Notes under the pieces: model-generated
The model's database searches: none
Seen by the model: the letters and a program-made list of their open reading frames with translations, nothing else
What the model was told of the DNA's origin: nothing
Translations under genes and position numbers: made by a program
Assembly (NCBI GenBank): GCA_020438105.1
Contig: JAGQVE010000002.1
Span: 1 to 64,000 of the forward strand
DNA length: 64,000 nt
Reading direction: 5' to 3'
From: Bacteroidales bacterium
Lineage (GTDB): Bacteria; Bacteroidota; Bacteroidia; Bacteroidales; JAADJA01
Part shown: piece after piece, positions 21,999 through 37,638 of the stretch
Layout of the letters: the number at the start of each line of letters is the position of its first letter
Numbering within the stretch: position 1 is the stretch's first letter

Positions 21999-24938
21999 TT
22001 AGGCCTCCCGCGGATCTCCCTTTAGCGGCAGCTTAGCCAACTTCTCTACCGTCAGGCTCGGGAACTCAAACTCCTCAGTTACTTCTCCTAAAATTAGATA
22101 TACACCTTTCCCTTTAAAAGGATAATTCTGCAGCGATTTCGGAAAATGAACCGAATCAAAAAACTCACCTGTGGCATCGAGGAAGGTACCGAAATGCATC
22201 CACTCCTTCTTCACGGTTTTTACATATTTGATGGTAACCAGATTGCCAACCATGCGCACCTTTTTCCCAACAAACTGGATCATGTCTTTAGCCAGGATCT
22301 CCCCCCGAAACGAAGTTTTCAGCATATCAAAATGAGTCATCGTCACCGGGAAGCCGATCAATTCAATCTCGTCGTAAGCATTTTCGATCAGGCTGGTTTC
22401 GAGTTGGGGCAAGGTGAAAGTTTTCGGTTTGGAATAAAACAGGGCATTCTGCACCGACTTCTTTTCTTTGCTCACTAACATATGCGATTCCCACAACAGT
22501 TCCTGTTTGGTGCTCACTGTAAATCGGAAAGCGTCGATCTTGATCAAAATAATCAACTGCTCAATTCCGATAGGAACCCGCCGGATGAAATCTTCCAAAT
22601 CAACAAAATCGCCGTTGTGGTTGCGTTCTTCTTCAATTCGGATAGCTACTTTGTTTTCGAGGTTTGCAATATGGACAAACCCAACATAAATATCTTTGCC
22701 GATGATTCGGGTAGCATAAGTGCTGTTGTTGATACAAGGCAGTTTGATATTAGCACCCTGCCGCCGGGCTTCATTAAAATAGACCCAGGTATGGTAAAAC
22801 CCCCCGAAGTTGTTGATCACTGCCGTCATGAACTCCAGCGGGAAATAGGCTTTCAGGAAGAGGCTCTGGAAGCTTTCAACCGCATACGAAGCCGAGTGCG
22901 CTTTGGAAAAGGAATATCCTGCAAAGGAGTCGATCTGCCGCCAGATCTCGTTCGTGAGTTCATCAGGATAACCACGTTCTTTGCAATTCGAAAAAAACTT
23001 ATCGACGATCCGTTTCATCTCCTCATGTCCGCGAAACTTGCCGCTCATGGCGCGTCGCAACACATCGGCATCGGCCAGATCGAGGCCGGCAAAATGATGG
23101 CACACTTTAATCACGTCTTCCTGGTAAACCATCACACCATAAGTCTCTTCCAACTGATCTCTCATAATCGGATGGAGGTATTCGAAATCATCAGGATGAT
23201 GAAACCGATGGATATACTGACGCATCATCCCCGACTTGGCCACCCCCGGCCGGATGATGGAGCTTGCCGCCACCAGGCTCAGGTAGTTGTCGCAGTGCAG
23301 CTTTTTCAGCAATCCACGCATAGCAGGACTCTCAATATAAAAACAGCCGATGGTCTCCCCTTTTTTGAGTTGGCCTTTTACCTTTTTATCATTCTTGAAT
23401 TTATCCACCTCATGCACATCCACCTTTATTCCACGATTTTGCAGGATGATGTCGGCTGCATCGCGGATATGACCGATTCCCCGCTGACTCAGAATATCTA
23501 GTTTCTCAAAACCGATATCCTCAGCGACATACATATCCCATTGCGTGGTGGGAAATCCTTTTGGTGGAAGGTCAAGGGCGGTGTAATACGAAAGCGGTTC
23601 TTCAGAGATCAGGATCCCGCCTGCGTGAATGCTCCGCAGGTTGGGAAAATCAAGCACTTCCTGTGAAATTTCATAGATTTTTCGGGTGATTTCATTTTTA
23701 TCCACTTCCGTTTCGGGATTGTCGACCAGCGCATCAATCTCCTGCTTGGGAAGTCCGTATACCTTCCCCAATTCCCTGAAAATTGACTTGCCTTTAAAGG
23801 TAGAAGTCGCGCCTAACAGGGCAGTATGTTTTTCGCCATATCTTTTAAAAATGTAATCCTGCACATCTTCGCGTTCGCGCCAGGAGTAATCGATGTCAAA
23901 ATCGGGCGGACTGGTTCGTTTTGGATTGATGAATCGCTCAAAGTAAAGATCAAGGTCGATGGGATCAACGTCTGTTATTTTAAGACAATAAGCCACCACG
24001 CTGTTGGCGCCACTCCCCCGCCCCACATGGTAAAAACCACGCGACATCGAATAATGAATGATGTCCCAGGTGATCAGAAAATAAGAAGCAAAACCGAGAT
24101 TAAAAATAATGTTCAATTCGTTCTCCACCCTGCGACCCGCTTCCTTATTGTTTTTGCCATAGCGATATTCCAGGCCTTCATATGCCAGCTTGGTCAACAA
24201 TTTCTGATCGTCGGCCTTATTGCCGGTAAAGGTCTTTTTGTTTTTAAAAGTCCTGTAATCGTAATCGATACCGCAATCTCCCAGAATTCGCTCCGTATTT
24301 TTGATAATTTGTGGAAAATCCCGAAAAGGTTTGAGCAATTGATCCGTTTCCATCATCCACTCCGATTCGTGTGCCAGCATTTCCGGTTTAAGTTTTGAAA
24401 GCAAAATGTTGTTATCAATTGCCCTCAAATTTTGATGGATATCATATCCTTTCTCATCACCAAAAGTGACCGGGTGATGGATCAGCAGCCGCGAATGATC
24501 TTTTGAAAAATCGGAAGAATACAATTTCATCAGATCACTTTTCCGAACCCCGATAAATTCATGGTCATCCGGCAGGATGGTTTGTTTTCCCCGAAACGGA
24601 TAAACCAGATACGCATGCTCAAATGGTTTCGGCCGAGCCGGGTAATCTGATTTATTGAGATTATGCCAGGTAACGAACTCGTTCAGTTCGCGCATGCCCT
24701 CATTGTTTTTGGCAATTCCTGTATAAAGAAATTCATTGCCATTCCGAAACTCGATCCCTCCGATAGGTTTTATCTCGTTTTCTTTACAGATCCTTACAAA
24801 ATCGATCATACCGGTGGAATTGTTGATATCGGTCAGCGCTAAAGCCCGGATATTCCTTTCCTGGGCCAGCTTTACCAACTTATCAATGGCGAGGGTGCCG
24901 TAACGAAGGCTGTAATATGAGTGTGTGTTGAGGTACAA
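21999..24938 (-). CDS. DnaE2-like error-prone DNA polymerase III alpha subunit
   Basis: 979 aa C-family polymerase, shorter than the ~1,160-aa replicative DnaE. Order: PHP domain (about 1-210), palm (RGSGANSVVAYC and the acidic PPDFDIDYS near residue 345), thumb and fingers, helix-hairpin region, and a C-terminal OB fold (about 885-965). PHP metal ligands look degraded: LHxHS has become LNTHS and TDHGN is TDINN, so no PHP exonuclease is expected. With dinB upstream on the same strand and a LexA-like gene nearby, it is best read as a translesion polymerase of an SOS mutasome. Confidence 0.88.
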   Translation of the reverse strand: MYLNTHSYYSLRYGTLAIDKLVKLAQERNIRALALTDINNSTGMIDFVRICKENEIKPIGGIEFRNGNEFLYTGIAKNNEGMRELNEFVTWHNLNKSDYPARPKPFEHAYLVYPFRGKQTILPDDHEFIGVRKSDLMKLYSSDFSKDHSRLLIHHPVTFGDEKGYDIHQNLRAIDNNILLSKLKPEMLAHESEWMMETDQLLKPFRDFPQIIKNTERILGDCGIDYDYRTFKNKKTFTGNKADDQKLLTKLAYEGLEYRYGKNNKEAGRRVENELNIIFNLGFASYFLITWDIIHYSMSRGFYHVGRGSGANSVVAYCLKITDVDPIDLDLYFERFINPKRTSPPDFDIDYSWREREDVQDYIFKRYGEKHTALLGATSTFKGKSIFRELGKVYGLPKQEIDALVDNPETEVDKNEITRKIYEISQEVLDFPNLRSIHAGGILISEEPLSYYTALDLPPKGFPTTQWDMYVAEDIGFEKLDILSQRGIGHIRDAADIILQNRGIKVDVHEVDKFKNDKKVKGQLKKGETIGCFYIESPAMRGLLKKLHCDNYLSLVAASSIIRPGVAKSGMMRQYIHRFHHPDDFEYLHPIMRDQLEETYGVMVYQEDVIKVCHHFAGLDLADADVLRRAMSGKFRGHEEMKRIVDKFFSNCKERGYPDELTNEIWRQIDSFAGYSFSKAHSASYAVESFQSLFLKAYFPLEFMTAVINNFGGFYHTWVYFNEARRQGANIKLPCINNSTYATRIIGKDIYVGFVHIANLENKVAIRIEEERNHNGDFVDLEDFIRRVPIGIEQLIILIKIDAFRFTVSTKQELLWESHMLVSKEKKSVQNALFYSKPKTFTLPQLETSLIENAYDEIELIGFPVTMTHFDMLKTSFRGEILAKDMIQFVGKKVRMVGNLVTIKYVKTVKKEWMHFGTFLDATGEFFDSVHFPKSLQNYPFKGKGVYLILGEVTEEFEFPSLTVEKLAKLPLKGDPREA

Positions 24939-24942
24939 TTTT

Positions 24943-25003
24943 GAGTGAGCTAAAGTTAAAAGTGACTAAAGTTTTAAGTGAGCTAAGTTATAAGTGCATA
25001 AAG
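24943..25003. repeat. degenerate AGTGA(G/C)TAAAGT-type short repeats
   Basis: Several imperfect copies of a 10-13 base unit (agtgagctaaagtt, agtgactaaagttt, agtgagctaagtta). The same units recur at 26346-26397 on the other side of dinB. They fill much of the 207-base gap between dinB and the polymerase gene. Confidence 0.75.
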
Positions 25004-25072
25004 TAATTTGGCTTTCGTAAAAACAGTTTTCATATCATAATTCCTGAATCCCTCAACTGGCGAAGGAGGGCA

Positions 25073-25147
25073 GAACCCCCGTCCGAACGGATGTTCATCC
25101 GGGCGGGCTGAACTCCGAACTAACTTCGAACCTCAAACATCGAACTC
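25073..25147. repeat. GC-rich palindrome plus CTTCGAAC-type repeats, downstream of dinB
   Basis: 25073-25108 is identical over 36 bases to 26408-26443. It folds on CGGATG/CATCCG with outer CCCGTC/GGCGGG arms and a 4-base bulge. It is followed by diverged copies of CTTCGAAC/CTCAAACATCGAAC (25111-25147), which run into the dinB stop. High GC contrasts with the surrounding DNA. Confidence 0.85.
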
Positions 25148-26333
25148 ATACCTGATACTTCAAATGGTGAACCTCCTTCACTACATTCATCCCTGCCGCC
25201 CTTCGCACCGCCTTGTTTCCAAACCGCAACCTGATCCGGTCCATCGCCTGGTAAAGGCTTGTCATTTCAGGTGTATCTTCAAACAGGTTCAATTGTTGGG
25301 CACCCTGCACCAGTCCACTGAATTTGACCCCTATCAACCGCACCAGCATCCTTCTCGAATAAACCTTTTCGAATAATTCCAGTGCTGTTTTTAGCAAAAT
25401 GTGATCGAATGAGGTATATGGAATATGATGTTGCAAGGTATGCGTATCAAAATTCGAATAACGGATCTTCACAGTTATACAAGAGGTGAGTTTATCTTCT
25501 TTACGCAGTTGAAACGCGATTTTTTCCACCATCCCGATCAAAATATCTTTAAGCATCTTAACATCGATCGTATCAGTTTCAAAAGTCCGTTCCGTCCCGA
25601 TCGACTTACGCTCCGAGTATTGCTGCACGGGAGTCGGGTCAATACCATTGGCCTTTTTCCAGATCACTGTTCCGTTTTTGCCCATCACCCGTTCGATCAT
25701 ATCGGGTGGAACATCGCGAAGCGTCCTCACTGTAGAGATCCCCATCGACCTTAAAAGTTGATAGGTCTTCCCTCCCACCATCGGGATCTTTTTGATCGAT
25801 AGCGGATCGAGGAATGGAATGACACCTTGCTGCGGAATCTGTAAAAGGCCGTTGGGTTTAGCCTCTCCGGTCGCAATCTTTGATACCGTTTTATTAATAG
25901 AAACCCCGAATGAAATTGGCAGGTGTGTCTCTTTGATGATTTTTTCGCGTAGTTCCTGCGACCATTTCAGGTTTCCGAAAAAGCGGTCCATCCCGGTGAT
26001 ATCAAGATAATGTTCATCGATAGAAGCCTTTTCGTACACCGGCGCCCTTTCGGCGATGATTTCCGTGACCATCTTCGAAAACTTGCTGTACTGATCCTGG
26101 TCACCTCTAACAACGATCGCATGATCGCAGAGTATCCGTGCCATCTTCATCGGCATGGCAGAATGAACACCGAACTGCCGGGCTTCATAACTACAGGAAG
26201 CAACTACCCCTCTGTCGGAAGTACCCCCAATGATCACCGGCTTGCCGATCAGCTTGGGATTCAGCAATCGCTCCACCGAAACAAAAAAGGTGTCGAGATC
26301 GAGATGTACTATGCAGCGGTTTGTGAGTGACAT
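25146..26333 (-). CDS. dinB: DNA polymerase IV (DinB, Y family)
   Basis: The start is placed at the ATG at 26333 (MSLTNRCIVHLDLDTFFVSVE); an upstream in-frame ATG at 26351 would add six residues. It is 395 aa. Catalytic acids are D12 in HLDLD and D106-E107 in ASIDEHYLD; the VVASCSYEARQFGVHSAMP block is canonical. A C-terminal QLNLF is a sliding-clamp binding motif. It performs translesion synthesis, presumably with the DnaE2-like protein 207 bases downstream. Short repeats flank the gene on both sides. Confidence 0.94.
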   Translation of the reverse strand: MSLTNRCIVHLDLDTFFVSVERLLNPKLIGKPVIIGGTSDRGVVASCSYEARQFGVHSAMPMKMARILCDHAIVVRGDQDQYSKFSKMVTEIIAERAPVYEKASIDEHYLDITGMDRFFGNLKWSQELREKIIKETHLPISFGVSINKTVSKIATGEAKPNGLLQIPQQGVIPFLDPLSIKKIPMVGGKTYQLLRSMGISTVRTLRDVPPDMIERVMGKNGTVIWKKANGIDPTPVQQYSERKSIGTERTFETDTIDVKMLKDILIGMVEKIAFQLRKEDKLTSCITVKIRYSNFDTHTLQHHIPYTSFDHILLKTALELFEKVYSRRMLVRLIGVKFSGLVQGAQQLNLFEDTPEMTSLYQAMDRIRLRFGNKAVRRAAGMNVVKEVHHLKYQV

Positions 26334-26345
26334 TGTTGATTGACC

Positions 26346-26534
26346 ATGCAAAAAGTGACTAAAGTGGTTTAAGTGAGCTAAAATGCCTAAAGTTAACCCT
26401 GAACTCTGAACCCCCGTCCGAACGGATGTTCATCCGGGCGGGCCCGTCCGAATCCGCCAACCGACGGAGGCGGGCTGAAACCAGAACCTTTTAAACAACT
26501 TCGAACATCGAACTTCAAACATCGAACTTCAAAC
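26346..26534. repeat. mosaic of short intergenic repeats upstream of dinB
   Basis: Contains AGTGACTAAAGT-type units (26346-26397), the 36-base GC-rich palindrome identical to the copy at 25073 (26408-26443), a second related palindrome (26443-26477, CCCGTCCGAATCCGCC then GACGGAGGCGGG), and three tandem AACTTC(G/A)AACATCG-type units (26497-26534). The same three repeat types are met on the other side of dinB. Confidence 0.85.
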
Positions 26535-26559
26535 TATTTCCATTTTTTTCATTTTTTAC

Positions 26560-26589
26560 TTGACATTTTAATTTTTCATTGTATCTTTG
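26560..26589 (+). promoter_or_regulatory. Bacteroidota-type promoter for the four-helix/S24 operon
   Basis: TTGACA at 26560-26565 (-33) and TATCTTTG at 26582-26589 (-7) with exactly 19 bases between TTG and TA, an excellent match to the Bacteroidota consensus. The start of transcription would fall just before a palindrome at 26600-26615. Confidence 0.7.
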
Positions 26590-26599
26590 ATCAGATTTT

Positions 26600-26615
26600 A
26601 ATCATTTAAACGATT
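26600..26615. promoter_or_regulatory. candidate repressor operator (AATCaTTTAAAcGATT)
   Basis: A 16-base near-perfect palindrome with one mismatched pair, sited about 10 bases after the -7 element. A TTTAATCATTT half recurs at about 26619-26630. The position suits repression by the HTH-S24 protein encoded in this operon. Assignment to that protein is inference. Confidence 0.45.
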
Positions 26616-26693
26616 ACAATTTAATCATTTTTTCGAAACTATAAATAGCTAAACGAAAATATTTTTTTAAAGAACCATTTAAATCGTAGTAAA

Positions 26694-27101
26694 ATGAGTG
26701 CATACAAGAATCTTGAAATATACCAGTCGGCCTTTAACCTGGCCATTAAAGTTTACCGGATGAACATCATGTTGCCGGTAAATGCATTACTAAACCAGGG
26801 AAACCGGCTGCGGTGGGCATCGCTACTAATTAAAGATCTGATCGCAGAAGCATACACCGGAATAAAAAGCGAAAAGGAAGTAGTAAGAAATCTTACACTT
26901 GCTGAAACTTCAACTGAAGAAGTCATCAAGCTTTTAAAAAAGATCAGGGCAAATAACGAAAACCTGAAACAGTTACCCGAGTTGATCAAAAGTTATAAAA
27001 GTCTGAAAAGGAACATCAGTGCACATATTCATAAAATACAGGATGATAAAAATACCTACGTGCTCCCTTTTCCGGATAGCATGGTGATGGAAGTGGCATA
27101 A
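26694..27101 (+). CDS. four-helix bundle protein (23S rRNA IVS-protein/bAvd-like family)
   Basis: 135 aa, wholly alpha-helical by composition. The start YKNLEIYQSAFNLAIKVYRM fits the four-helix family (PF05635-like: L-x-v-W/Y-Q-x-A...VY). The usual RRAA.SI..NIAEG block is replaced by WASLLIKDLIAEAYTG. In other contexts the fold serves in rRNA intervening sequences or as the Avd factor of retroelements; no reverse transcriptase is here. It precedes the S24 repressor by 38 bases and probably shares its promoter. Function here unknown, perhaps tied to the mutasome. Confidence 0.75.
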   Translation: MSAYKNLEIYQSAFNLAIKVYRMNIMLPVNALLNQGNRLRWASLLIKDLIAEAYTGIKSEKEVVRNLTLAETSTEEVIKLLKKIRANNENLKQLPELIKSYKSLKRNISAHIHKIQDDKNTYVLPFPDSMVMEVA

Positions 27102-27139
27102 TCTGAATTTTTAATTACAATCTTTATACTATATAAATA

Positions 27140-27940
27140 ATGTATTTCAACAGCAATATAAAATTTATGAGAAAGCGCCGGGGCCGCACACAGGATGATG
27201 TGGCCTTTGCCCTGGAGATGAAACGCTCCACCCTCAGCGGTTACGAAAACGAAGTAGCCAAACCCAGTGTGGAAGTGCTGCTCGCTTTTTCCGACTACTA
27301 TAAAATATCGGTAGATACTTTAATCAAAATCGACCTCTCTTCACTTCCTGAAAGTCAGCTACGCCAGTTGGAACTCGGCTATGATGTTTTTATAAAAGGA
27401 AGCAATTTGCGTATTCTTGCAACCACGGTTGACAGCGAGGATAATGAAAACATTGAACTGGTTTCTGAAAAAGCCAGTGCCGGTTACACCAGCGGTTTTG
27501 CTGACCCGGAATACATCAAAGTACTGCCAACATTCAAACTGCCATTCCTTTCAAGAGAACGTAAGTACCGCACTTTTCAGATCAATGGTGACTCCATGCT
27601 GCCGATACCCGATAAATCGTTTGTTACGGGTGAGTTTATCGAAAACTGGCAACATATCAAAGACGGGCAGCCCTGCATTATCCTCACACTGGATGATGGG
27701 ATTGTTTTTAAGGTAGTGGAAAACAAAATCGATAGCAGCGGCACCTTTCGGCTGCACTCACTGAACACCCTTTACGATCCCTATGAAATACCGGTGAACG
27801 ACATTCGTGAAGTATGGAAATTCGTGAATTATATCAGCTCTGAAATGCCCGACCGCAATGTGGAAAAAGATGAACTGGTGAGCGAAGTACGGGCTTTAAG
27901 GCAGGAAGTGAGGGCTATACAGATGAAGTTGAATTTATAA
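27140..27940 (+). CDS. LexA/CI-like repressor: XRE HTH plus S24 peptidase
   Basis: 266 aa. An N-terminal helix-turn-helix (about 5-65, RKRRGRTQDDVAFALEMKRSTLSGYE) is joined to a C-terminal S24 domain. Catalytic serine S152 (INGDSMLP) and lysine K191 (IVFKVV) are present. A scissile Ala-Gly (A114-G115 in KASAGYTSGF) lies at the expected place, so RecA-triggered self-cleavage is likely. A short coiled coil ends the protein (EVRALRQEVRAIQMKL). By context it should be the SOS-type regulator of this operon and of the dinB and dnaE2-like genes. Confidence 0.92.
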   Translation: MYFNSNIKFMRKRRGRTQDDVAFALEMKRSTLSGYENEVAKPSVEVLLAFSDYYKISVDTLIKIDLSSLPESQLRQLELGYDVFIKGSNLRILATTVDSEDNENIELVSEKASAGYTSGFADPEYIKVLPTFKLPFLSRERKYRTFQINGDSMLPIPDKSFVTGEFIENWQHIKDGQPCIILTLDDGIVFKVVENKIDSSGTFRLHSLNTLYDPYEIPVNDIREVWKFVNYISSEMPDRNVEKDELVSEVRALRQEVRAIQMKLNL

Positions 27941-27984
27941 GTAAGTTTGCCTTTGGAAAAACTGATAGCAAGGAAACAGCGAAT

Positions 27985-28043
27985 AACTTCAAACATCGAA
28001 CTTCCCCGCCTGCATAACGCAGTCGGGCAGGAAACTTCGAACT
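27985..28043. repeat. CTTCAAAC repeats flanking a GC-rich palindrome
   Basis: AACTTCAAACATCGAACTT (27985-28003) and AAACTTCGAACT (28032-28043) bracket a palindrome (28004-28027) in which CCCG, CTGC pair with GCAG, CGGG around ATAAC. It is the same repeat family as around dinB. It ends 4 bases before the start codon of the next gene. Confidence 0.8.
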
Positions 28044-28047
28044 GGCA

Positions 28048-29397
28048 GTGTTCTCCATCATCGACATAGAAACCACCGGACTCAGCCCCAAACGGGAGAA
28101 AATCACCGAGATCGCCATTTTTGTGCATGATGGCGAAAAGGTGGTGGATGAGTTTTCTACCTTAATTAATCCCGAGGTCGATATCCCCTACCGCATCACA
28201 CAGATCACAGGCATCAATAATAAAATGGTAAAGGATTCTCCGAAATTTTATGAGGTGGCCAAACATATTGTGGAGATGACAGAAGGAACCACTTTTGTTG
28301 GGCACAACGTTCATTTCGATTATAATTTTGTACGAAAAGAATTCCGGGAGTTGGGATATGATTACCAGCGGAAGGTTATTTGTACTGCAAAACTTAGTCG
28401 CAAACTACTGCCGGGACGACGTTCCTACTCGTTAGGAAAATTATGCCCGGAGTTGGGAATTGAAAATCCTCACAGGCATCGGGCATTTGGAGATGCAGCT
28501 GCAACTACACGACTATTTGAAATCTTAATGAAAGTGGAGAAAAATATCGAATCGATTTCGCTTCGGGATTTAAATACCAGTCTTAACAGGGATTTAATCC
28601 GCAGCCTTCCCCACGAACCAGGAGTTTATTATTTCTATGATATCGACGAAAACCTTATTTATGTAGGCAAAAGCAAAAATATCCACGATCGGGTGATGTC
28701 GCACCTCACGAATAATGGTTCCAAAAGAGCTATCGAAATGCGTAATCAGATTGCCGATATTGACTTTAAAAAGACCGGTAATGAACTTGTAGCACTTTTG
28801 CTTGAATCGGATGAGATCAAAAAGCACCTGCCCCGCTTTAACCGAGCTCAACGCCGAACATCATCGCAATGGGGCCTTTTTTATCATAAAGATGAAAACG
28901 GCTATATCAGGTTGAAAATTGATCATAATGATCGTGAAGAATTACCCTTAACTACTTTTAATTCGCTTCAAAGTGCTAAAAATCACCTTTTCACACTTGT
29001 GGAGGCCTTTACTCTTTGCCAAAAACTTTGCGGATTGTTTGATACGAAAGGCGCTTGTTTTCATTACAATTTAAAGCAATGCAAGGGCGCTTGTATCGGG
29101 CAGGAATCTGCAGGAAAATATAATGCCCGGGTTTTGCAGGCCATTGAGCCTTATCGCTTTGAAGAACGCAATTTTATGGTGATTGGAAAAGGAAGACGCG
29201 ACACGGAAAAATCGGTGGTTTTGGTCGAAAACGGCACATACCGCGGATTTGGGTTTATTGACTCAGAATTTGATCAAAACCTTAAAACAGATGATTTGAA
29301 AAATGCAGTTAGAGTCTACCCTGATAACAGGGATATCCAGCAGATACTAAGAAGTTACCTCAAACAAAATGGATCTTCACAAATAATTACCTTTTAA
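28048..29397 (+). CDS. DEDD exonuclease and GIY-YIG endonuclease fusion (DnaQ-Cho/UvrC-like)
   Basis: 449 aa. An N-terminal DnaQ-type 3'-5' exonuclease (about 1-170) has D6-x-E8 in IIDIETTG and the HxAxxD block HRAFGDAAAT. A GIY-YIG nuclease follows (about 190-280, PGVYYFYDIDENLIYVGKSKNIHDRV) with catalytic-type E near ALLLESDEIKK, then a Cys-containing UvrC-like segment (CFHYNLKQCKGACIG). Such fusions act in DNA damage incision. The GTG at 28048 gives the canonical start FSIIDIETTG, but the leader is made of intergenic repeat, with a possible GGA-type ribosome site inside it. It continues the repair island. Confidence 0.9.
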   Translation: MFSIIDIETTGLSPKREKITEIAIFVHDGEKVVDEFSTLINPEVDIPYRITQITGINNKMVKDSPKFYEVAKHIVEMTEGTTFVGHNVHFDYNFVRKEFRELGYDYQRKVICTAKLSRKLLPGRRSYSLGKLCPELGIENPHRHRAFGDAAATTRLFEILMKVEKNIESISLRDLNTSLNRDLIRSLPHEPGVYYFYDIDENLIYVGKSKNIHDRVMSHLTNNGSKRAIEMRNQIADIDFKKTGNELVALLLESDEIKKHLPRFNRAQRRTSSQWGLFYHKDENGYIRLKIDHNDREELPLTTFNSLQSAKNHLFTLVEAFTLCQKLCGLFDTKGACFHYNLKQCKGACIGQESAGKYNARVLQAIEPYRFEERNFMVIGKGRRDTEKSVVLVENGTYRGFGFIDSEFDQNLKTDDLKNAVRVYPDNRDIQQILRSYLKQNGSSQIITF

Positions 29398-29465: not shown

Positions 29466-30464
29466 ATGACACTGAAGAAACCATTTTCCAAAGATATTTT
29501 ACACATTGAAAACATTGAAAAATTAACCAAAGGCCTTTGTGAAAGACTGGTAGAGGATGTTTTCAGAAAATATAAAAGACGTGGTGCTGTAATTGGAATT
29601 AGTGGTGGCATCGACTCTTCTGTTACCATGGCTTTAGCTGTAAAAGCCTTCGGAGCAAACAGGGTTTATGGTGTGATGATGCCCGAAAAGGATTCCAGTC
29701 CTGACAGTAAGAATCTTGCCCAGGTTTTGGCCGATAAATTTGGCGTAGAAGCGGTAGTTGAAAATATTCGTCCGGCTTTGGAAGGGTTACGTTGTTATGA
29801 GCGCCGTGATGAAGCCATCCAAAGGGTTTTCCCTGATTTTAATCCAAAAACTGATAAATCAAAAATAGGTGTAAACCAAACTGGTCTGGATCAAAACCTC
29901 CCGCCTGTTTTTCATCTGACGGTAATCGACTCAAAGAACATTGTGCGGAGCAAAATATTACCTGTAAATGAATACCTTCAAATTGTTGCGGCTTCCAATT
30001 TTAAACAGCGAACACGCATGGAAATGGTTTATTATCATGCCGAGCAAAAGCATTATGTTGTTCTGGGTACTGCCAACAAACATGAAATTGATCAGGGATT
30101 TTTCGTGAAATTCGGTGACGGTGGTTCTGATATGTATCCCCTTGCCGGATTATACAAAACACAGGTTTACCAATTGGCCGCTCACCTTGGGGTTCCGCAG
30201 GAAATTATCGACAGGACACCAACAACCGATACCTATAGCGCGGAACAAACACAGGAAGAATTTTTCTATCAGTTACCCTTCGATGTGATGGATCTGATGT
30301 GGTATGGAATGGAAAATGGGTATTCACCTGTAGAGGTTGCTGATGTTATGGGAAAATCAGAAGGTGAAGTTAAAAGTATCTTCAAAAACTTCGAACGTAA
30401 AATAAAAACCACTGATTACCTGCGAGCCAACCCAATGATGTATCCCGGTTTTGAAAGTTTTTAA
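29466..30464 (+). CDS. NadE-family ATP-pyrophosphatase (NAD+ synthase-like), cluster-associated
   Basis: 332 aa, no glutaminase domain. P-loop SGGIDSS lies at 46-52; later NadE blocks are intact (RTRMEMVYYHAEQKHYVVLGTANKHE, then GDGGSDMYPLAGLYKTQVY). It is longer than ammonia-dependent NadE (~275 aa) because of an insertion of about 50-60 residues near 100-160. NAD+ synthase amidates the deamido-NAD carboxylate through an acyl-adenylate. The stop is 2 bases before an adenylate-forming ligase, and the cluster also has a carrier protein and AsnB-like enzyme, so it may amidate a pathway intermediate instead. A plain nadE role remains possible. Confidence 0.82.
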   Translation: MTLKKPFSKDILHIENIEKLTKGLCERLVEDVFRKYKRRGAVIGISGGIDSSVTMALAVKAFGANRVYGVMMPEKDSSPDSKNLAQVLADKFGVEAVVENIRPALEGLRCYERRDEAIQRVFPDFNPKTDKSKIGVNQTGLDQNLPPVFHLTVIDSKNIVRSKILPVNEYLQIVAASNFKQRTRMEMVYYHAEQKHYVVLGTANKHEIDQGFFVKFGDGGSDMYPLAGLYKTQVYQLAAHLGVPQEIIDRTPTTDTYSAEQTQEEFFYQLPFDVMDLMWYGMENGYSPVEVADVMGKSEGEVKSIFKNFERKIKTTDYLRANPMMYPGFESF

Positions 30465-30466
30465 TC

Positions 30467-31951
30467 ATGAATGTTTTTGATTATCTCTTCGAAAACACTT
30501 CTTCGCTTAATAAAAACCTTGTTCTTGGCAATAAGGAAAAAATCTCTTACCAGCAGATTTACGATAATACCTTAAGTGTAACGCAGCAAATTATTGACAG
30601 CTTCGGAACTGAAAATAACATCATACTTTTAAGTGAAAACTCTGTATTTTTCATAACGGCCTACCTGGCTATCATGAAATCGGGAAATGTTTGTGTCCCG
30701 CTCAATCCTGCTCTCGAAGATGGCAGTTTAAAAGAGATTATTGAAAAAACAGAATCAAAAATAGCTTTTGTAAGCAAGCGTTTTTTTAAAAAACTTGAAA
30801 ACTATGATTTGAATTTGATAGATAATGAGTTGGTTGAAAAATGGACTCATCTAAATCCGGGTAGTAATTCACAAAGTTTCGCCTCCGATTTCGAACCGGA
30901 AAAACTGGCTCAGATCATATTTACTTCCGGTTCCACCGGAGAACAAAAAGGTGTAATGCTTAGTCATAAAAATTTGATAGCAAACACCGGTTCAATACTC
31001 GATTACCTGCATCTTACTTCTGAGGATACCATTCTTATAGTTATGCCCTTTTATTACTGTTATGGGCTGTCATTATTGCACACACATCTTCGGATTGGCG
31101 GATCTGTAGTTTTAAATAATTCTTTTGTGTTTATTGGTACAGTGATCAATGACCTCAATAAATATGCTTGTACAGGTTTTTCAGGAGTCCCTAGCCATTT
31201 TCAAATCCTCTTACGAAAAACCAAAGATTTTAAAACTACTCAATTCGAAACGCTCAGGTATGTTACCCAGGCAGGAGGTAAATTGCACAATGCCTTTATA
31301 CAGGAATTTCTGGATGCATTTCCACAAATCAGCTTTTTTGTTATGTATGGTCAAACAGAGGCCACTGCAAGACTTTCTTATCTCCCCCCCGAACAATTAC
31401 CTGCTAAGCTTGGCTCCATGGGAAAAGGAATACCAAACGTGGAGTTACAGGTTGTAAATAATGATGGATTGAAGGTTAAAGCGGGTGAAGTTGGCGAAAT
31501 CATAGCCAGGGGCGATAACATTATGCAAGGTTATTTTAAAGACCCCGAAACAACTGCAAAAACGCTCAAAAACGGATGGTTATATACCGGGGACATGGCC
31601 ACTGTTGACGAAGAAGGATATATCTTCATTCAAAGCAGGGCCAAGGAAATAATCAAAGTGCGCGGAATCCGTATCAGTCCCAAAGAAATCGAAGAGGTAA
31701 TTGTTGAATATCCGGGGGTTGTGGATTGCACGATTGTAGCAATGGAGGATGAAATTGCTGGCGAAGCTTTAAAAGCAATTGTATATATAAATGATGCTGA
31801 TAAGGATTCTTTTCTGGAGGATGATATTCGAAAACATTGTGCTGAGCAGCTTGCTTCACACAAAGTTCCCCAGTTTGTTGAGTTTCAAACAAAATTGATA
31901 TTCAATGCCGCCGGTAAAAAAACAAAAGCGGCTATTAATCCGAGAATTTAA
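30467..31951 (+). CDS. class I adenylate-forming enzyme (acyl/aminoacyl-AMP ligase)
   Basis: 494 aa ANL-superfamily ligase, close in size to DltA and carrier-loading acyl-ACP ligases. Motifs: P-loop IIFTSGSTGEQKGVMLSHKNL (near 150), VMYGQTEAT (near 290), YTGDMATVDEEGYIFIQSR (near 375), and the C-terminal catalytic lysine in NAAGKKTKAAI. It activates a carboxylate as AMP-ester and passes it to a thiol, plausibly the carrier protein at 35381. It follows the NadE-like gene by 2 bases. Its last 4 bases overlap the end of the convergent SGNH gene. Confidence 0.88.
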   Translation: MNVFDYLFENTSSLNKNLVLGNKEKISYQQIYDNTLSVTQQIIDSFGTENNIILLSENSVFFITAYLAIMKSGNVCVPLNPALEDGSLKEIIEKTESKIAFVSKRFFKKLENYDLNLIDNELVEKWTHLNPGSNSQSFASDFEPEKLAQIIFTSGSTGEQKGVMLSHKNLIANTGSILDYLHLTSEDTILIVMPFYYCYGLSLLHTHLRIGGSVVLNNSFVFIGTVINDLNKYACTGFSGVPSHFQILLRKTKDFKTTQFETLRYVTQAGGKLHNAFIQEFLDAFPQISFFVMYGQTEATARLSYLPPEQLPAKLGSMGKGIPNVELQVVNNDGLKVKAGEVGEIIARGDNIMQGYFKDPETTAKTLKNGWLYTGDMATVDEEGYIFIQSRAKEIIKVRGIRISPKEIEEVIVEYPGVVDCTIVAMEDEIAGEALKAIVYINDADKDSFLEDDIRKHCAEQLASHKVPQFVEFQTKLIFNAAGKKTKAAINPRI

Positions 31952-32904
31952 AAGCCATGTGTTTTCACACCCTCCCGAAGTGGTTTTTCGCCCCAGATCT
32001 CATCTGTAATTTCATCAAGTAGATATTTTCTTGGATGGAAAAAGTCTGTAAAATTCTGACGTTCTTCACTTATGGTTAGTCCCGAATCATAATCGATGAG
32101 TTTGCCCAATGAAGCAATATCCCTCTTAAATCTCATGTAAGGTTCCCAAAGTCCTATCTCGCGCAAATGCGTCCCAAGTGCTTTGTATGTAGGCATGATA
32201 ATAAAAACCAGTTCAATATTATTGTGATCACAGTAGTTCGCAATTTCAGTTAAACCGGCGAATATGGAATCAGGATATTCATAACTTTCAAAAAATAAAT
32301 CCATCCGTTCGTTTGCCAAAATATCCATTTCATATGCAGGTGCCAGTTCATGCGAATTAATAACCAGATACTGGTTACCTGAAATGGCGTAGCGCATATT
32401 TATCCACGAATCAAATAGTATCTCTTTACGAGCAAAATATAAGTATGGTTTATCCATATAATCAGTCCCTAAGTTGGAGATATTATATGACCGAAATCCG
32501 TTATAATTCATGAACGATACCTCCATGTATACCTTTTTTAATTTGACTTTTTCGGCACAAAACCAAAAATTATCAAAAATGGTTTCATAGCTTGCTCCCG
32601 GAATACAGAAATTAAACCAGTCCTCTCCTGTCAATGAATCAAGCTGGGACTCTTCTATTGCGCGACATTGTGAATCGCCAAATAATACATTCTCAACCGG
32701 ATTTCTTTTATAATGTACAAGTTTCCATAACAAATTACCCCGCGGACCGGATTCATCATTTCTGTTAAGAACCTTAAGCTTTTTATCCGCAGAAATTATG
32801 TGCACCAAATTTATGAACTCATAAGGATCGACAATGGTAATGTAACTTATAAATAAGAAAATCGGAATGCTGAATAATAGGCTCTTATATATTTGTTTCT
32901 TCAT
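31948..32904 (-). CDS. SGNH-type membrane-anchored protein, DltD/AlgJ-like partner of MBOAT
   Basis: 318 aa. One N-terminal signal-anchor helix (about 7-25) places the rest outside the inner membrane. It shows SGNH-type residues: Ser78 in FGDSQCR and a C-terminal D287-x-x-H290 (TDFFHP). It follows the MBOAT gene by 7 bases. Pairing of an MBOAT with an anchored SGNH protein is the design of DltB/DltD, AlgI/AlgJ and PatA/PatB systems, where the SGNH member completes acyl transfer to a cell-surface polymer. Assignment rests on motifs and context. Confidence 0.75.
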   Translation of the reverse strand: MKKQIYKSLLFSIPIFLFISYITIVDPYEFINLVHIISADKKLKVLNRNDESGPRGNLLWKLVHYKRNPVENVLFGDSQCRAIEESQLDSLTGEDWFNFCIPGASYETIFDNFWFCAEKVKLKKVYMEVSFMNYNGFRSYNISNLGTDYMDKPYLYFARKEILFDSWINMRYAISGNQYLVINSHELAPAYEMDILANERMDLFFESYEYPDSIFAGLTEIANYCDHNNIELVFIIMPTYKALGTHLREIGLWEPYMRFKRDIASLGKLIDYDSGLTISEERQNFTDFFHPRKYLLDEITDEIWGEKPLREGVKTHGF

Positions 32905-32911
32905 GCGTTAC

Positions 32912-34351
32912 CTAAAATTTCAAATAAACAAAAGTGCTATCGGAACTACTGAAATAGTATATCATGATGATCAGTAAATAATAGCCGGACCACCTGATGA
33001 TCCTGGAACGGTTCAAAAACCATTTTACCAAATCAACTCCTTTTTCCTGGTAGTACTCAATAATAAACAAGACTAAAAACGCTGCAAGGGCAATTCCAAA
33101 ATTGAGTTTTTCATAAACAAGCCCATGACCAGTCATTTTAAGTTCAAAATTTGAAAAAAGATGAGTGATGAAATAAGCTGCGTCGCTTATATTTTGGGAG
33201 TTGAAAAATACCAGTGTAAAACAAAAAAACACAAACGTGATTAACCTGCTGGTGAATGTAACAAACTTAGCAGGCAACTTTGATGCAATTTGAATCCGTT
33301 TGCGTTTGGTATAAAATTCATAACTGATAGCAATTCCCTGCAGAATCCCCAACACCACAAATGTCCAGTTTGCACCGTGCCAGATACCAATAACAAAAAA
33401 AGTCAGGAATATTCCAATAATGGCAGCCTTCTGCCCCATCTTGCGGTATTTGACGATAAAAGGTGAAAATATAAAATCGTTGCACCAGCTTGATAGTGAC
33501 AAATGCCATCTACGCCAAAACTCTCCTACGTTTTTGGCAAAAAATGGCCGGTTAAAATTGTCAGCCAGTTTAATCCCAAATAATCTGGCAGAGCCAAGGG
33601 CCATATCCGTATATCCAGAAAAATCGCAATACAAATGAATTACCTGAACAAAGAGTACCATCAATAGTGGAAATCCCGAGTAATCATGCACATCGCCATA
33701 AACAGTCATTACAGGTGCTGCAAGATTATTCCCGATTACCACTTTTTTAAAAAGTCCCCACAAAAAAAGCCTTCCACCAGCACTTACGTTTTCACTATTA
33801 AAAAGTATGGGCTTTTGTAATTGCGGAAAAAAATGGTTGGAGCGCTCTACCGGACCAGCCAAAAACTTTGGGAAAAATGTTAAATAAAGAGCAAACTTGA
33901 TAAAGTTCTTTTCGGGTTGTTCCGAGCCCCTATTTATTCTGATTATATAACCCAGTGCCTGAAAGGTATAATATGAAATTCCTACAGGTATGATGATCGA
34001 CAGGTAAGGAATTTCAGGTTGTGATGGGAATAACCCGAGTACAACATTAATATTTTCGGATATGAAATTGATATACTTGTAAAAAGCCAATATTCCAATA
34101 TCAAGATAAACCGCAAACCAGAATAATCTTTTTCGTTTTTGTTTTGTTTTAATAGCAACTAAGCCAAGTCCAGTAAAATAATTTAGGACTGAAAATAATA
34201 GTGTAAAAATGATTAATTGAGGGGCAATATATCCGATGAAAAATAAGGAGGCTAACAGTAAAATTAAATTCCTAAACCGGTATTGAACGGCATAGTAAAT
34301 CACCAATAACATCCCCAAAAACAGAAAATAATAAAATGAATTAAAAAGCAT
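32912..34351 (-). CDS. MBOAT family O-acyltransferase (DltB/AlgI-like)
   Basis: 479 aa with about 11 hydrophobic helices. The MBOAT signatures are FPKFLAGPVERS (near 165), FWRRWHLSLSSW (H283) and the catalytic H325 in IGIWHGANWTF. MBOATs of this class move acyl groups from a cytoplasmic donor across the inner membrane to an extracytoplasmic acceptor. The likely donor is the carrier protein at 35381, loaded by the ligase at 30467. It forms an operon with the SGNH gene that follows, divergent from the lipoprotein gene at 34454. Confidence 0.93.
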   Translation of the reverse strand: MLFNSFYYFLFLGMLLVIYYAVQYRFRNLILLLASLFFIGYIAPQLIIFTLLFSVLNYFTGLGLVAIKTKQKRKRLFWFAVYLDIGILAFYKYINFISENINVVLGLFPSQPEIPYLSIIIPVGISYYTFQALGYIIRINRGSEQPEKNFIKFALYLTFFPKFLAGPVERSNHFFPQLQKPILFNSENVSAGGRLFLWGLFKKVVIGNNLAAPVMTVYGDVHDYSGFPLLMVLFVQVIHLYCDFSGYTDMALGSARLFGIKLADNFNRPFFAKNVGEFWRRWHLSLSSWCNDFIFSPFIVKYRKMGQKAAIIGIFLTFFVIGIWHGANWTFVVLGILQGIAISYEFYTKRKRIQIASKLPAKFVTFTSRLITFVFFCFTLVFFNSQNISDAAYFITHLFSNFELKMTGHGLVYEKLNFGIALAAFLVLFIIEYYQEKGVDLVKWFLNRSRIIRWSGYYLLIIMIYYFSSSDSTFVYLKF

Positions 34352-34453
34352 TATTGATTATCCTTGTGAGGTACAAAACTATCAGCACTTTAGGTGCATT
34401 TCGTACGTAATAAAACAAAATTAGTTAGTTTTAGATTTCTAAATCAGACACAA

Positions 34454-35311
34454 ATGTGCAAACAAATTTTAAAATATTTCGGATCACTTTTCACAATAAT
34501 TTTGATGGTCCAATGTTCAAGTCCGGAAATGCCTGCTCCTGATAGAGATACAACCAAAATATTATTTCTTCACCACAGCACAGGGCAGTTAATTTGGGAC
34601 GGCAAACCCAGGGGTATTGATATTGTTCGGAATTGGTTTACGAAAGTACATGCTGTTCCTGAATGGTTTATAGATTACAATAGTAAAAACGGCACAAAAT
34701 ATTATATTGAGGAGCGTGCCTTCCCGACCGACAAACCATACGGCTGGAAGAACTATCCTTTTGATTACTATAATATTTGGGTTAAAAATGCAGGCCCGGA
34801 ACCTTACCTCGAACAACCAACTTTGGAAATGCTAACGCCGGATTTTAATGTGATTATTTTTAAACATTGCTTTCCCGTTGGTCAAATAGAGGAAGATACC
34901 GGAAACGCGGACATAAACTCCGAGGTTCGCAGTATTGAAAATTACAAGTTGCAATATTTAGCACTTCGTGATAAATTACATGAATTTCCCAATACCAAAT
35001 TTATTGTATGGACAGGTGCAGCATTGGTGGAGAACAAAACGACACCTGAAAAAGCAAAACGAACAAAATTATTTTTTGATTGGGTTGTGAACGAGTGGGA
35101 TCAGGATAACGATAACATTTATATTTGGGATTTTTATCAACTGGAAACAGAAGGCGGATATTACCTTAAAAATGAATATGCGCGTAACAAAGGAAACTCA
35201 CACCCAAATAAAAGTTTTTCAGGCAGTGTTTCCCCGTTATTTTGTAATCGTATAGTTGATGTAATTGAAAATGAAGGCACTGAAACAACCCTTTCAGGTA
35301 GGATCAAATAA
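34454..35311 (+). CDS. lipoprotein with SGNH-like HHSTG motif
   Basis: The ATG at 34454 gives a proper lipoprotein signal (MCKQILKYFGSLFTIILMVQCSS); a longer frame from 34394 would bury it. Mature protein ~265 aa. ILFLHHSTGQLIW near the start and GNSHPNKSF near the end place Ser, then His, as in SGNH esterases lacking the GDS form. A conserved VIIFKHCFP lies between. I do not recognise a named family. It sits between the MBOAT pair and the carrier gene, so it may act on the same product outside the cell. The role is inference. Confidence 0.68.
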   Translation: MCKQILKYFGSLFTIILMVQCSSPEMPAPDRDTTKILFLHHSTGQLIWDGKPRGIDIVRNWFTKVHAVPEWFIDYNSKNGTKYYIEERAFPTDKPYGWKNYPFDYYNIWVKNAGPEPYLEQPTLEMLTPDFNVIIFKHCFPVGQIEEDTGNADINSEVRSIENYKLQYLALRDKLHEFPNTKFIVWTGAALVENKTTPEKAKRTKLFFDWVVNEWDQDNDNIYIWDFYQLETEGGYYLKNEYARNKGNSHPNKSFSGSVSPLFCNRIVDVIENEGTETTLSGRIK

Positions 35312-35380
35312 TTTTTGCATGCGATGAAACTTAAAATTACAAGGCAAATATAACAACTGAATTTTATACCTCTAACTAAT

Positions 35381-35638
35381 ATGGAAATGATCGAAACGAT
35401 TGAAATTAAAGAAAAGATCCGGAAATTTATTGCAGAAACAGCTTTTGTTCCGGAGGAGAAAATACAGGATGGAACAATGATCTTCACCGAAGGAATTTTT
35501 GATTCAATGGGATTTTTATCCCTGATCAATTTTATTGAAGATAATTTCGATGTAAAAGCTGAGGACGCCGAACTCCTTGAGGAGAATTTCGAATCGTTGG
35601 AAGCCATTTCTGCTTTCGTTGTTCGCAAAACCAATTAA
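35381..35638 (+). CDS. acyl carrier protein (stand-alone carrier)
   Basis: 85 aa. The phosphopantetheine attachment serine is S42 in GIFDSMGFL, and the four-helix acidic pattern is complete (EDNFDVKAEDAELLEENFESLEAISAFV). Size and the second-helix motif fit DltC or natural-product carriers as well as AcpP; the sequence is not the standard AcpP (which has ADSLD). It precedes the AsnB-like gene by 5 bases, so the two should be co-translated. Loading by the ligase at 30467 is inferred. Confidence 0.92.
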   Translation: MEMIETIEIKEKIRKFIAETAFVPEEKIQDGTMIFTEGIFDSMGFLSLINFIEDNFDVKAEDAELLEENFESLEAISAFVVRKTN

Positions 35639-35643
35639 TAATC

Positions 35644-37638
35644 ATGTGCGGCATTGCCGGAATTTTTCATTTCCAGTATCCCGATAAACCGGTAAGTGAA
35701 AACAAAATAGCCAATATGCTTCGGGTAATCCGTCATCGGGGACCCGATGAAAGCGGGATTTACCTTGGTGAAAATATTGGTCTGGGGAATGTAAGGCTTA
35801 GTATTATTGACCTTTCTTCAGGAAGCCAACCCATCGGTGTTCAGGATAACAGGTATTGGATTGTATATAATGGTGAACTTTTCAATTACCCTGAATTAAA
35901 GCATGAACTGGAAACCATGGGGTACCAATTTATAACCAGTTCCGACACTGAAGTGGTAGCACAAGCTTATGCATGTTGGGGTGCCGATTGTTTAAAGAAA
36001 TTTAACGGTCAGTTTGCCATCAGCATTTGGGATCGAAAAGAAAAACAACTTTTTCTTGCCCGCGACAGAGCTGGTATCAGGCCTGTGTTTTACACGGTGC
36101 AAAATGGTGGTATTTATTTCTGTTCAGAGATTAAAGGAATATTTGAAAATCTGGAAATTCAACGGATTTTATCAAAAGATGGCTTGAATCAGGTATTCCG
36201 TTATTGGACCACACTTTCACCCAATACACCCTGGGAAAGAATAGAAGAGCTGCCTCCCGCTCATTTTATGATCGTAAACCAAAACGGTTTACATATTGAA
36301 AAGTACTGGCAGCTTGAATTTCCGGCCAAAGAAGCGTTAACAAATGAAAAGCCGATAAGCGAGTATATTGATGAACTCAGCGGACTATTCAGTGATGCTG
36401 TAAAAATCAGGCTTCGGGCTGATGTAGAAGTTGCGGCATATTTAAGTGGAGGGATCGACTCTACAATAACCACATCCTTTATTCATGAAATTGATCCTAA
36501 TATTCTGAATACATTTTCCATTGGTTTTACCGATCGCGACTTCGATGAGTCAGTTTATCAGCAGGAGGCAGCTCATTATTTTGGCACCAATCACACGGCA
36601 TTTACCTGCACATCCGGCGAAATTGGTGAAAACTTTATGGATACCGTCTATTTTTCAGAATTCCCGATTTTAAGAACGGCTCCCACACCCATGTATTTAT
36701 TATCAAAGAAAGTTCGTGAGCGCGGAATTAAGGTGGTAATAACCGGTGAGGGGGCTGATGAAGTTTTTGCAGGGTACAATATTTTCAAAGAAGCCAAGAT
36801 ACGGAGATTTTGGGCCAGTCAACCTAAATCGGAAGCAAGGGCCTTACTCCTCAAAAAATTATATCCGTACTTGCCCATTATGAAGGATGCCAGAAGCAAC
36901 ACCTTAAAAATGTTTTTTGGCTATGCACTTGAAGATGTTAAAAACCCATTTTATTCGCATTTGCTCAGATGGCACAATACCAGCCGCATCAGTAACTATC
37001 TTCAAAACGACTGGCAGGTTGGTAATGATTCTGAAAGTTGGGATCGGCACTTATTAAATACGATTCATCCCGATTTTGGTGATTTTGGTGATCTTGCGAA
37101 ATCGCAATACCTGGAGTTTTCTATTTTTATGTCGAATTATTTGCTATCGTCGCAAGGCGACCGAATGGCGATGGGAAATTCTGTGGAAGGCAGGTACCCT
37201 TTTCTTGACTATCGTATTATTGAGTTTGCAGCAAAACTTCCAGAGCGATATAAGCTGAATGCTTTAAATGAAAAATTTATTCTTAAAAAAATGATGGCAG
37301 GTAAAATACCTGACAGCATCCTGAAACGAAGCAAACAAGCATACAGAGCGCCAATTGGTTCGAGTTTGTATGGGAAAAACCCCCCGGAATATGCTCAAAT
37401 TTTATTATCTGAAAAAAGCATTACCTCTTTTGGATATTTTAATCCTGAAATGGTAAATAAGTTAAAAGAAAAACTGCTTACTGGCAAAATGATCTCAGAA
37501 ATTGATCATATGGCACTTTCGGGAATTCTGTCCACCCAGCTTCTTCACCATTTATTCATCGACAGAAAAAACATTGATTTCAAAAAAGATGACCTCCGTA
37601 ATCTGAAGGTCATCCACGAACACAATCTAAAATCTTAA
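35644..37638 (+). CDS. asparagine synthase (glutamine-hydrolysing)-like amidotransferase
   Basis: 664 aa. The N-terminal class II glutaminase uses C2 (MCGIAGIF) and holds the usual RHRGPDESG block. The C-terminal synthetase domain carries the ATP-pyrophosphatase loop YLSGGIDST (near 265), then VVITGEGADEVFAGY (near 365) and RMAMGNSVEGRYPFLD (near 510). AsnB makes asparagine, but relatives in surface-polysaccharide and natural-product loci amidate other carboxylates. The neighbouring carrier protein and the presence of an adenylating ligase resemble the amidotransferase-ligase-ACP trio of exosortase-A loci. The true substrate is unknown. Confidence 0.85.
   Translation: MCGIAGIFHFQYPDKPVSENKIANMLRVIRHRGPDESGIYLGENIGLGNVRLSIIDLSSGSQPIGVQDNRYWIVYNGELFNYPELKHELETMGYQFITSSDTEVVAQAYACWGADCLKKFNGQFAISIWDRKEKQLFLARDRAGIRPVFYTVQNGGIYFCSEIKGIFENLEIQRILSKDGLNQVFRYWTTLSPNTPWERIEELPPAHFMIVNQNGLHIEKYWQLEFPAKEALTNEKPISEYIDELSGLFSDAVKIRLRADVEVAAYLSGGIDSTITTSFIHEIDPNILNTFSIGFTDRDFDESVYQQEAAHYFGTNHTAFTCTSGEIGENFMDTVYFSEFPILRTAPTPMYLLSKKVRERGIKVVITGEGADEVFAGYNIFKEAKIRRFWASQPKSEARALLLKKLYPYLPIMKDARSNTLKMFFGYALEDVKNPFYSHLLRWHNTSRISNYLQNDWQVGNDSESWDRHLLNTIHPDFGDFGDLAKSQYLEFSIFMSNYLLSSQGDRMAMGNSVEGRYPFLDYRIIEFAAKLPERYKLNALNEKFILKKMMAGKIPDSILKRSKQAYRAPIGSSLYGKNPPEYAQILLSEKSITSFGYFNPEMVNKLKEKLLTGKMISEIDHMALSGILSTQLLHHLFIDRKNIDFKKDDLRNLKVIHEHNLKS

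Follow-up and report, generated by a model that had tools for sequence, protein, structure and literature searches.

Several described systems resemble parts of a seven-gene locus that we analysed in an uncultured Bacteroidales bacterium: the Dlt system of teichoic acid D-alanylation (DltA, DltB, DltC, DltD and DltX), PatA/PatB and AlgI-type O-acetylation, the enzyme trio of XrtA/PEP-CTERM (exosortase A) loci, the amidotransferase WbpS, and the starter module of glutarimide polyketides. The locus occupies positions 29466-37638 of the window, meaning the whole analysed stretch of 64,000 nucleotides (contig JAGQVE010000002.1 of assembly GCA_020438105.1, positions 1 to 64,000). The real conserved unit within it is a core of four genes, which encode an acyl carrier protein (ACP), an AsnB-like amidotransferase, a NadE-like enzyme (PRK00876) and an adenylate-forming ligase. 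Across phyla this core is mostly found without an MBOAT acyltransferase and often in polysaccharide loci. All seven open reading frames of the locus were present:

29466..30464, plus strand: NadE-like N-type ATP pyrophosphatase (PRK00876/NF002048) without a glutaminase domain; core gene
30467..31951, plus strand: adenylate-forming ligase of the YCYG class (PF00501 and PF13193); core gene
31948..32904, minus strand: SGNH1, a membrane-anchored DltD-like SGNH protein (GDS Ser78; Asp287/His290)
32912..34351, minus strand: MBOAT acyltransferase (PF03062) with catalytic His325 and a C-terminal FVYLKF (FxYxxF)
34394..35311, plus strand: exported SGNH-fold lipoprotein (HHSTG Ser62, His270, lipobox Cys41)
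35381..35638, plus strand: stand-alone ACP (PF00550, 24.9 bits) with a GxFDS phosphopantetheine site at Ser42; core gene
35644..37638, plus strand: AsnB-like glutamine-dependent amidotransferase (TIGR01536) with glutaminase Cys2 and an SGGxDS synthetase loop; core gene

Families were assigned with Pfam and NCBIfam models, which gave clear matches for five of the seven proteins. SGNH1 and the lipoprotein had no Pfam match, relaxed thresholds included, except for one below the cut-off, and were assigned from AlphaFold models. The gene content proposed by a first-pass annotation was confirmed in this way, as were its spacings of 2 (NadE/ligase), 7 (MBOAT/SGNH1) and 5 (ACP/AsnB) bases. That annotation also took the tight spacing as a sign of one system. 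The gaps are real, but the genes split into three units of alternating orientation, NadE-ligase (plus), MBOAT-SGNH1 (minus) and lipoprotein-ACP-AsnB (plus), and spacing alone is therefore no proof of a single operon. The MBOAT-SGNH1 unit overlaps the ligase stop by 4 bases and the lipoprotein-ACP-AsnB unit is divergent from the MBOAT gene. It is the recurrence of the set in relatives that shows its unity.

The ligase, carrier, MBOAT and anchored SGNH protein had been described as the four parts of Dlt. The locus shares with Dlt a ligase, a stand-alone carrier, an MBOAT, a DltD-like SGNH protein and the FxYxxF shuttle. In contrast to Dlt, the ligase has no amino-acid-recognising Asp and resembles acyl-CoA ligases more closely than DltA; the shuttle tyrosine is part of the MBOAT, in the manner of Pat, whereas Dlt has it on DltX; and AsnB, NadE and the lipoprotein are added. 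On the DltB model TIGR04091 the MBOAT scored 185.9 bits against a cut-off of 375 (two other MBOATs of the genome scored 138 and 149), and on the DltC model TIGR01688 the ACP scored 20.6 bits against 52.35. The comparison with Dlt thus holds for the catalytic anatomy of a Dlt/Pat relay and for the DltD-like model, but not for identity with DltA, DltB or DltC; the set appears to work like Dlt, but on these tests it does not belong to that system. Teichoic acids are not expected in Bacteroidales, and dlt-like loci have been reported in a few Gram-negative bacteria (Bordetella dra).

PatA/PatB and AlgI-type systems have in common with the locus an MBOAT with a fused C-terminal FxYxxF, the catalytic His and a partner SGNH protein, but they draw on an acyl-CoA donor and lack a ligase, carrier or amidotransferase of their own (PMC12148441). 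The presence of a ligase and an ACP suggests a donor other than acyl-CoA for the locus MBOAT. A carrier-fed MBOAT/SGNH pair with a fused shuttle would be a new variant.

The XrtA/PEP-CTERM trio (TIGR03098 ligase, ACP and TIGR03108 amidotransferase) consists of the same three families and shares the tie to polysaccharide loci. It differs in that the window ligase reached 305.7 of the required 592.35 bits on TIGR03098 and the AsnB-like protein 395.1 of 816.9 bits on TIGR03108, and in that the locus has an added NadE-like gene. No exosortase was found in 8 of the 12 cassette genomes tested. A 212-aa exosortase-family open reading frame lies on another contig of the window genome (G000:C62:16526-16984) and is also found in two genomes of the same genus. 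The exosortase link drawn earlier is weak, and what ties the locus to the trio is similarity only.

Two further AsnB homologues offer partial parallels. WbpS (PGN_1234) of Porphyromonas gingivalis is, like the locus protein, a Bacteroidota AsnB-like amidotransferase, and it acts on an envelope glycan precursor; deletion showed that the uronamide of the linking sugar of the type IX secretion system needs WbpS (PMC7468200). It differs in acting on a sugar, and the part of that paper considered here names no ACP, ligase or NadE partner. In the starter module of glutarimide polyketides, an AsnB homologue and a discrete ACP are proposed to give a carboxamide acyl thioester by amidation of an ACP-bound acid (malonamyl-ACP; PMC7756379), but loading is by an acyltransferase (AT) instead of a ligase, the product feeds a polyketide synthase and there is no NadE. 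By analogy, action of the locus AsnB-like enzyme on an ACP-bound acid or on a uronic acid would both be possible. A literature search for the combination of ACP, AsnB, NadE, ligase and MBOAT-SGNH found no description in open-licence papers, in agreement with the earlier statement that no described system with this set is known.

Conservation of the core and of the seven-gene set

A search with an alignment of the NadE-like protein against one genome per GTDB species yielded 80 loci; such a search may favour close relatives, and some names of metagenome-assembled genomes (MAGs) are probably misbinned. Partners were counted within 9 kb of the NadE-like gene in the 39 loci that had at least 5 kb on both sides. 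An ACP was present in 38/39, AsnB in 36/39, a ligase in 36/39 and all three in 34/39. The hosts belong to Bacteroidota, Chloroflexota, Acidobacteriota, Ignavibacteria, Zixibacteria, Cyanobacteria, Alphaproteobacteria and others, and cultured carriers include Marinilabilia salmonicolor, Ancylomarina, Labilibacter marinus, Geothrix limicola and Ensifer/Sinorhizobium. In a phylum-wide draw, the NadE-like gene was found above a strict threshold in 11 of 296 other Bacteroidota, where BLAST placed an ACP beside it in 11/11, AsnB in 10/11 and a ligase in 10/11. Seven canonical NadE genes, taken as a control from genomes with the cassette, had no ACP, AsnB or ligase within 10-15 kb. Moreover, pairwise distances of NadE and AsnB in 70 loci were correlated (r = 0.84; shuffled maximum 0.25), those of the ligase less so (0.60); shared host ancestry inflates these values, which we take as support only.

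Within the window genus, the NadE-like gene was found in 14 of 16 other genomes, surrounded by the same seven genes wherever contigs allow. The set thus recurs in the relatives of the window genome. Gene order was identical in G005, G008, G009, G012 and G016, the units were permuted in G015, and the parts were spread over at least two contigs in G003, G013 and G011. Genome G006 has the core and the lipoprotein but neither SGNH1 nor a close MBOAT. The remaining two, G010 and G014 (84% and 95% complete, respectively), are without the core, and no SGNH1, lipoprotein or MBOAT of more than 37% identity was found in them, though they retain other MBOATs; for G010, incompleteness of the genome could account for the absences. 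The set therefore behaves as a unit, by conservation throughout the genus and by joint absence.

Just upstream of the locus (21999-29397) lie genes for a DnaE2-like polymerase, a Y-family polymerase, a 23S-intervening/four-helix protein, a LexA-like regulator and a DnaQ protein with a GIY-YIG (Cho-like) nuclease. This region adjoins the cassette within the window genus only. The DnaQ/GIY-YIG gene was considered as a part of the system and rejected, since it is a constant neighbour in the genus only and absent elsewhere. The promoter motif TTTG-N17-23-TAnnTTTG had two matches in the window, which is below chance expectation, and none near the locus.

Predicted functions of the core enzymes

The window NadE-like protein scored 421 bits on NF002048 (cut-off 313) and 172 bits on TIGR00552 (cut-off 63.65). 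NadE-like proteins of the cassette keep SGGxDS (SGGIDSS in the window), GTxNKxE and GDG and carry an insertion around residues 108-170. The PSA(G/D)L(W/F) motif of solved NAD synthetases is replaced by PT(T/S)DT(Y/F) in 111 of 115 cassette members (PTTDTY in the window). From these motifs, the protein is predicted to be an amide-type ligase with another acceptor. Among the sampled genomes, members of NF002048 ("NAD(+) synthase") stand nearly always in an ACP/AsnB/ligase cassette, and the name looks wrong for these cassette members.

The AsnB-like protein, in which Cys2 and SGGxDS are conserved, scored 489.6 bits on TIGR01536 (cut-off 267.1), a family that includes amidotransferases with other substrates. 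Both proteins being above the cut-offs of the biosynthetic families would fit plain housekeeping NAD and asparagine synthetases that stand in the locus by chance. However, the window genome has a second AsnB-like protein and, on another contig, a canonical NadE of 553 aa, which makes plain NAD or asparagine synthesis unlikely as their function and agrees with the earlier view of the two as additional enzymes. Together with the replaced motif and the partner genes conserved across phyla, this leaves the housekeeping explanation with next to no probability. The motif FDSMGF of the ACP was invariant in seven sequences.

The closest solved structure to the window ligase was 4-coumarate-CoA ligase, and no DltA was among the 60 best. 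In its A4 motif, MPFYYCYGLS, a Cys takes the place of the Asp found in amino-acid-activating domains. At least two classes can be told apart among cassette ligases: YCYG in 55 loci including the window, and FDYG in 24 loci, among them many from other phyla and some from Bacteroidota. FDYG aligns with the FDxS of nonribosomal peptide synthetase adenylation domains, amino-acid-recognising Asp included, and FDYG ligases of distant cassettes reached 444-472 bits on TIGR03098. Because Cys replaces this Asp, the substrate of the window ligase is probably not an ordinary alpha-amino acid but some other acid; the ligases of distant cassettes may use an amino acid. The constancy of NadE and AsnB across ligase classes suggests that their target is a feature shared by both products, or something else.

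Two further observations concern the ligase gene. In G003 (L037:2797-6022) two ligases stand in tandem between NadE and SGNH1, one of 487 aa and 66% identical to that of the window, the other of 526 aa and 33% identical. In an Ignavibacteriaceae locus (L118:8664-9932) a class III aminotransferase is placed between ligase and NadE, a hint of an amino group on the substrate.

Genomic neighbourhoods of the core

Outside the window genus the core is often located within capsule or exopolysaccharide loci. Recurrent neighbours were Wza, Wzc, a bacterial sugar transferase and glycosyltransferases, and further NusG-like antiterminators, UDP-GlcNAc 2-epimerase and hexapeptide transferases.

This placement bears on the main rival explanation, in which the core makes a modified nucleotide sugar: AsnB (and NadE) would amidate a uronic acid as WbpS does, the ligase and ACP with a GNAT/FemAB protein would work in the cytoplasm to decorate an amino sugar with an amino acid or an acyl group, and MBOAT/SGNH would acylate the resulting glycan separately. 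A precedent comes from P. gingivalis, where one sugar is modified by both kinds of enzyme: PGN_1234 makes the uronamide and VimA (GNAT/FemAB-like) adds Ser or Gly (PMC7468200). The polysaccharide loci, which sometimes include UDP-GlcNAc 2-epimerase, UDP-sugar dehydrogenase or FemAB/GNAT genes, fit as well, and so do the FDYG-class ligases, which look amino-acid-activating. However, in the window genus the seven-gene locus contains no sugar-nucleotide or glycosyltransferase gene, the core and MBOAT/SGNH are jointly retained or jointly missing, and AsnB is below the TIGR03108 cut-off. We consider this explanation unlikely, though it has to be taken seriously.

In several cassettes that lack an MBOAT, the adjacent gene encoded an AT3 acyltransferase (L119), a FemAB/GNAT protein (L106) or a ketosynthase III (L130). 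In L124 a GNAT match was weak (18.9 bits, below the cut-off), and in L099 and L129 the neighbours were GNAT-like by eye only. An AT3 or FemAB/GNAT gene beside cores without an MBOAT (L119, L106, L124) is expected if the core makes an acyl donor. The ketosynthase III and the aminotransferase of L118 would also fit a core that makes a small molecule or lipid, such as a diffusible amide, with no role in polymer modification, and sets of an AsnB with a ligase- or AT-loaded ACP also start polyketides (PMC7756379). Against this, no chain-extension or release genes recur, and the core is placed repeatedly beside Wza/Wzc and an exported SGNH protein; we regard such a product as very improbable.

Other neighbours were seen in smaller groups of loci. 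A DUF362 protein follows NadE in four non-Bacteroidota loci (L096, L099, L102 and L107), three of which also have a GNAT-like neighbour, and a small glyoxalase/VOC-like protein, read by eye, lies near capsule-linked cassettes (L066, L067 and L078, cluster c31). In a Flavobacterium MAG (L069:5695-7544), several fragments of AsnB lie upstream of a cassette that is itself intact; they look like the remains of a second copy. PrmC, a housekeeping gene, adjoins cassettes in some Bacteroidota. FabD was considered as a loading partner, as an Acyl_transf_1 gene follows AsnB in L058 and L059. It was rejected as background synteny because this gene and a GTP-cyclohydrolase-like gene (by eye) are also close together in L048, where the cassette is built differently.

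The transfer layer and the proposed pathway

The MBOAT, SGNH1 and the lipoprotein form a transfer layer that is joined to the core in the window genus and a few other Bacteroidota. His325, Phe474, Tyr476 and Phe479 of the MBOAT were invariant in 14 sequences from core loci. The FxYxxF motif is the acyl shuttle of DltX and PatA, in which the Tyr carries the acyl group (PMC12148441). Ser78, Asp287 and His290 of SGNH1 were invariant in 12 sequences, and the eight best PDB matches of its AlphaFold model (predicted local distance difference test score, pLDDT, 82) were DltD, with E-values of 1e-5 to 1.6e-4 and about 11% identity. In the lipoprotein, Cys41, Ser62 and His270 were invariant in 15 sequences; its model (pLDDT 82) matched SGNH carbohydrate esterases and PatB with high probability and E-values just above 0.001. 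The annotated lipoprotein start, a GTG, is probably too early; with the ATG at 34454, probably the true start, the signal peptide ends at the invariant lipobox Cys41. Profile comparison detected no relationship between SGNH1 and the lipoprotein (0.2% probability). An exported protein with HxSxG...GHLN, recurrent beside the core in diverse phyla, aligned by its profile to the lipoprotein in hhalign (probability 89.6%, E 1.9e-6).

On these families, catalytic residues, the shuttle motif, the DltD-like model and the conserved core, we infer that the locus acylates the cell surface by way of a carrier protein. First, the ligase would activate a carboxylic acid and load it onto the ACP. The AsnB-like enzyme would then convert a free carboxylate of the loaded acid to a carboxamide with glutamine nitrogen, and the NadE-like enzyme would carry out a second ATP-dependent, amide-type and possibly amidine-forming step on the same molecule. 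Once complete, the acyl group would be passed by the MBOAT through the inner membrane and onto the C-terminal tyrosine of the MBOAT itself, from which SGNH1 would take it to esterify an exported glycan. Further out, the SGNH lipoprotein would trim, move or re-attach the same ester.

Several points weigh against such a pathway. The core mostly occurs without the transfer layer, as an MBOAT was present in 5/39 and SGNH1 in 3/39 of the well-flanked loci, and G006 has the core and lipoprotein without either. With MBOAT and SGNH1 absent at most core loci and in G006, the transfer layer is optional. Other Gram-negative MBOAT/SGNH pairs use acyl-CoA. The NadE-like enzyme retains much of the NAD-synthetase active site, and a protein of the control genome Methanosarcina acetivorans is also above the NF002048 cut-off. 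Finally, the ligase class differs between loci, which may mean that the acid varies or that the ligase works separately.

Part of this evidence would fit an ordinary Pat/Alg-type O-acetylation by the MBOAT, SGNH1 and lipoprotein, which would use acetyl-CoA and stand beside the core by local synteny only: the MBOAT carries FxYxxF as a fused part, like those of CoA-using systems, most genomes with the core have it without the transfer layer, and G006 lacks MBOAT and SGNH1. However, the core is repeatedly accompanied by MBOATs of the same type in other Bacteroidota (L058, L059, L070, L080, L082 and L089; 48-78% identical to that of the window), while other MBOATs of the window genome itself are only 31-34% identical to it. 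In addition, G010 and G014 keep other MBOATs and lack this MBOAT and the core together, and the lipoprotein family follows the core into Acidobacteriota, where orthologues (37-38%) stand after NadE in L103, L104 and L110. We regard separate O-acetylation as rather unlikely. For the carrier-protein-dependent acylation system itself we consider the chances to be evenly balanced, and the earlier interpretation of a possibly amidated acyl group that is exported onto a surface polymer is partly supported.

Somewhat more tentatively, at a little below even chances, we propose that ACP, AsnB, PRK00876 and ligase make up a pathway, so far undescribed and spread over several phyla, in which an acyl or aminoacyl group with an amide or amidine is built on a carrier for surface glycans, that PRK00876 is misnamed, and that in the Gram-negative window genus this pathway feeds a carrier-fed, Dlt-like MBOAT/SGNH relay. 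The most interesting point, absent from the first-pass annotation, is the widespread core cassette behind the names NAD synthase and asparagine synthase. If the proposal is true, the database name NAD(+) synthase (NF002048) hides a surface-glycan enzyme, and from the widespread four-gene cassette one would expect bacterial capsules and exopolysaccharides to bear a new substituent with an amide; the cultured carriers make the cassette directly testable. The carrier-fed Dlt mechanism, best known with D-alanine, would then extend to another acyl group in Gram-negative bacteria.

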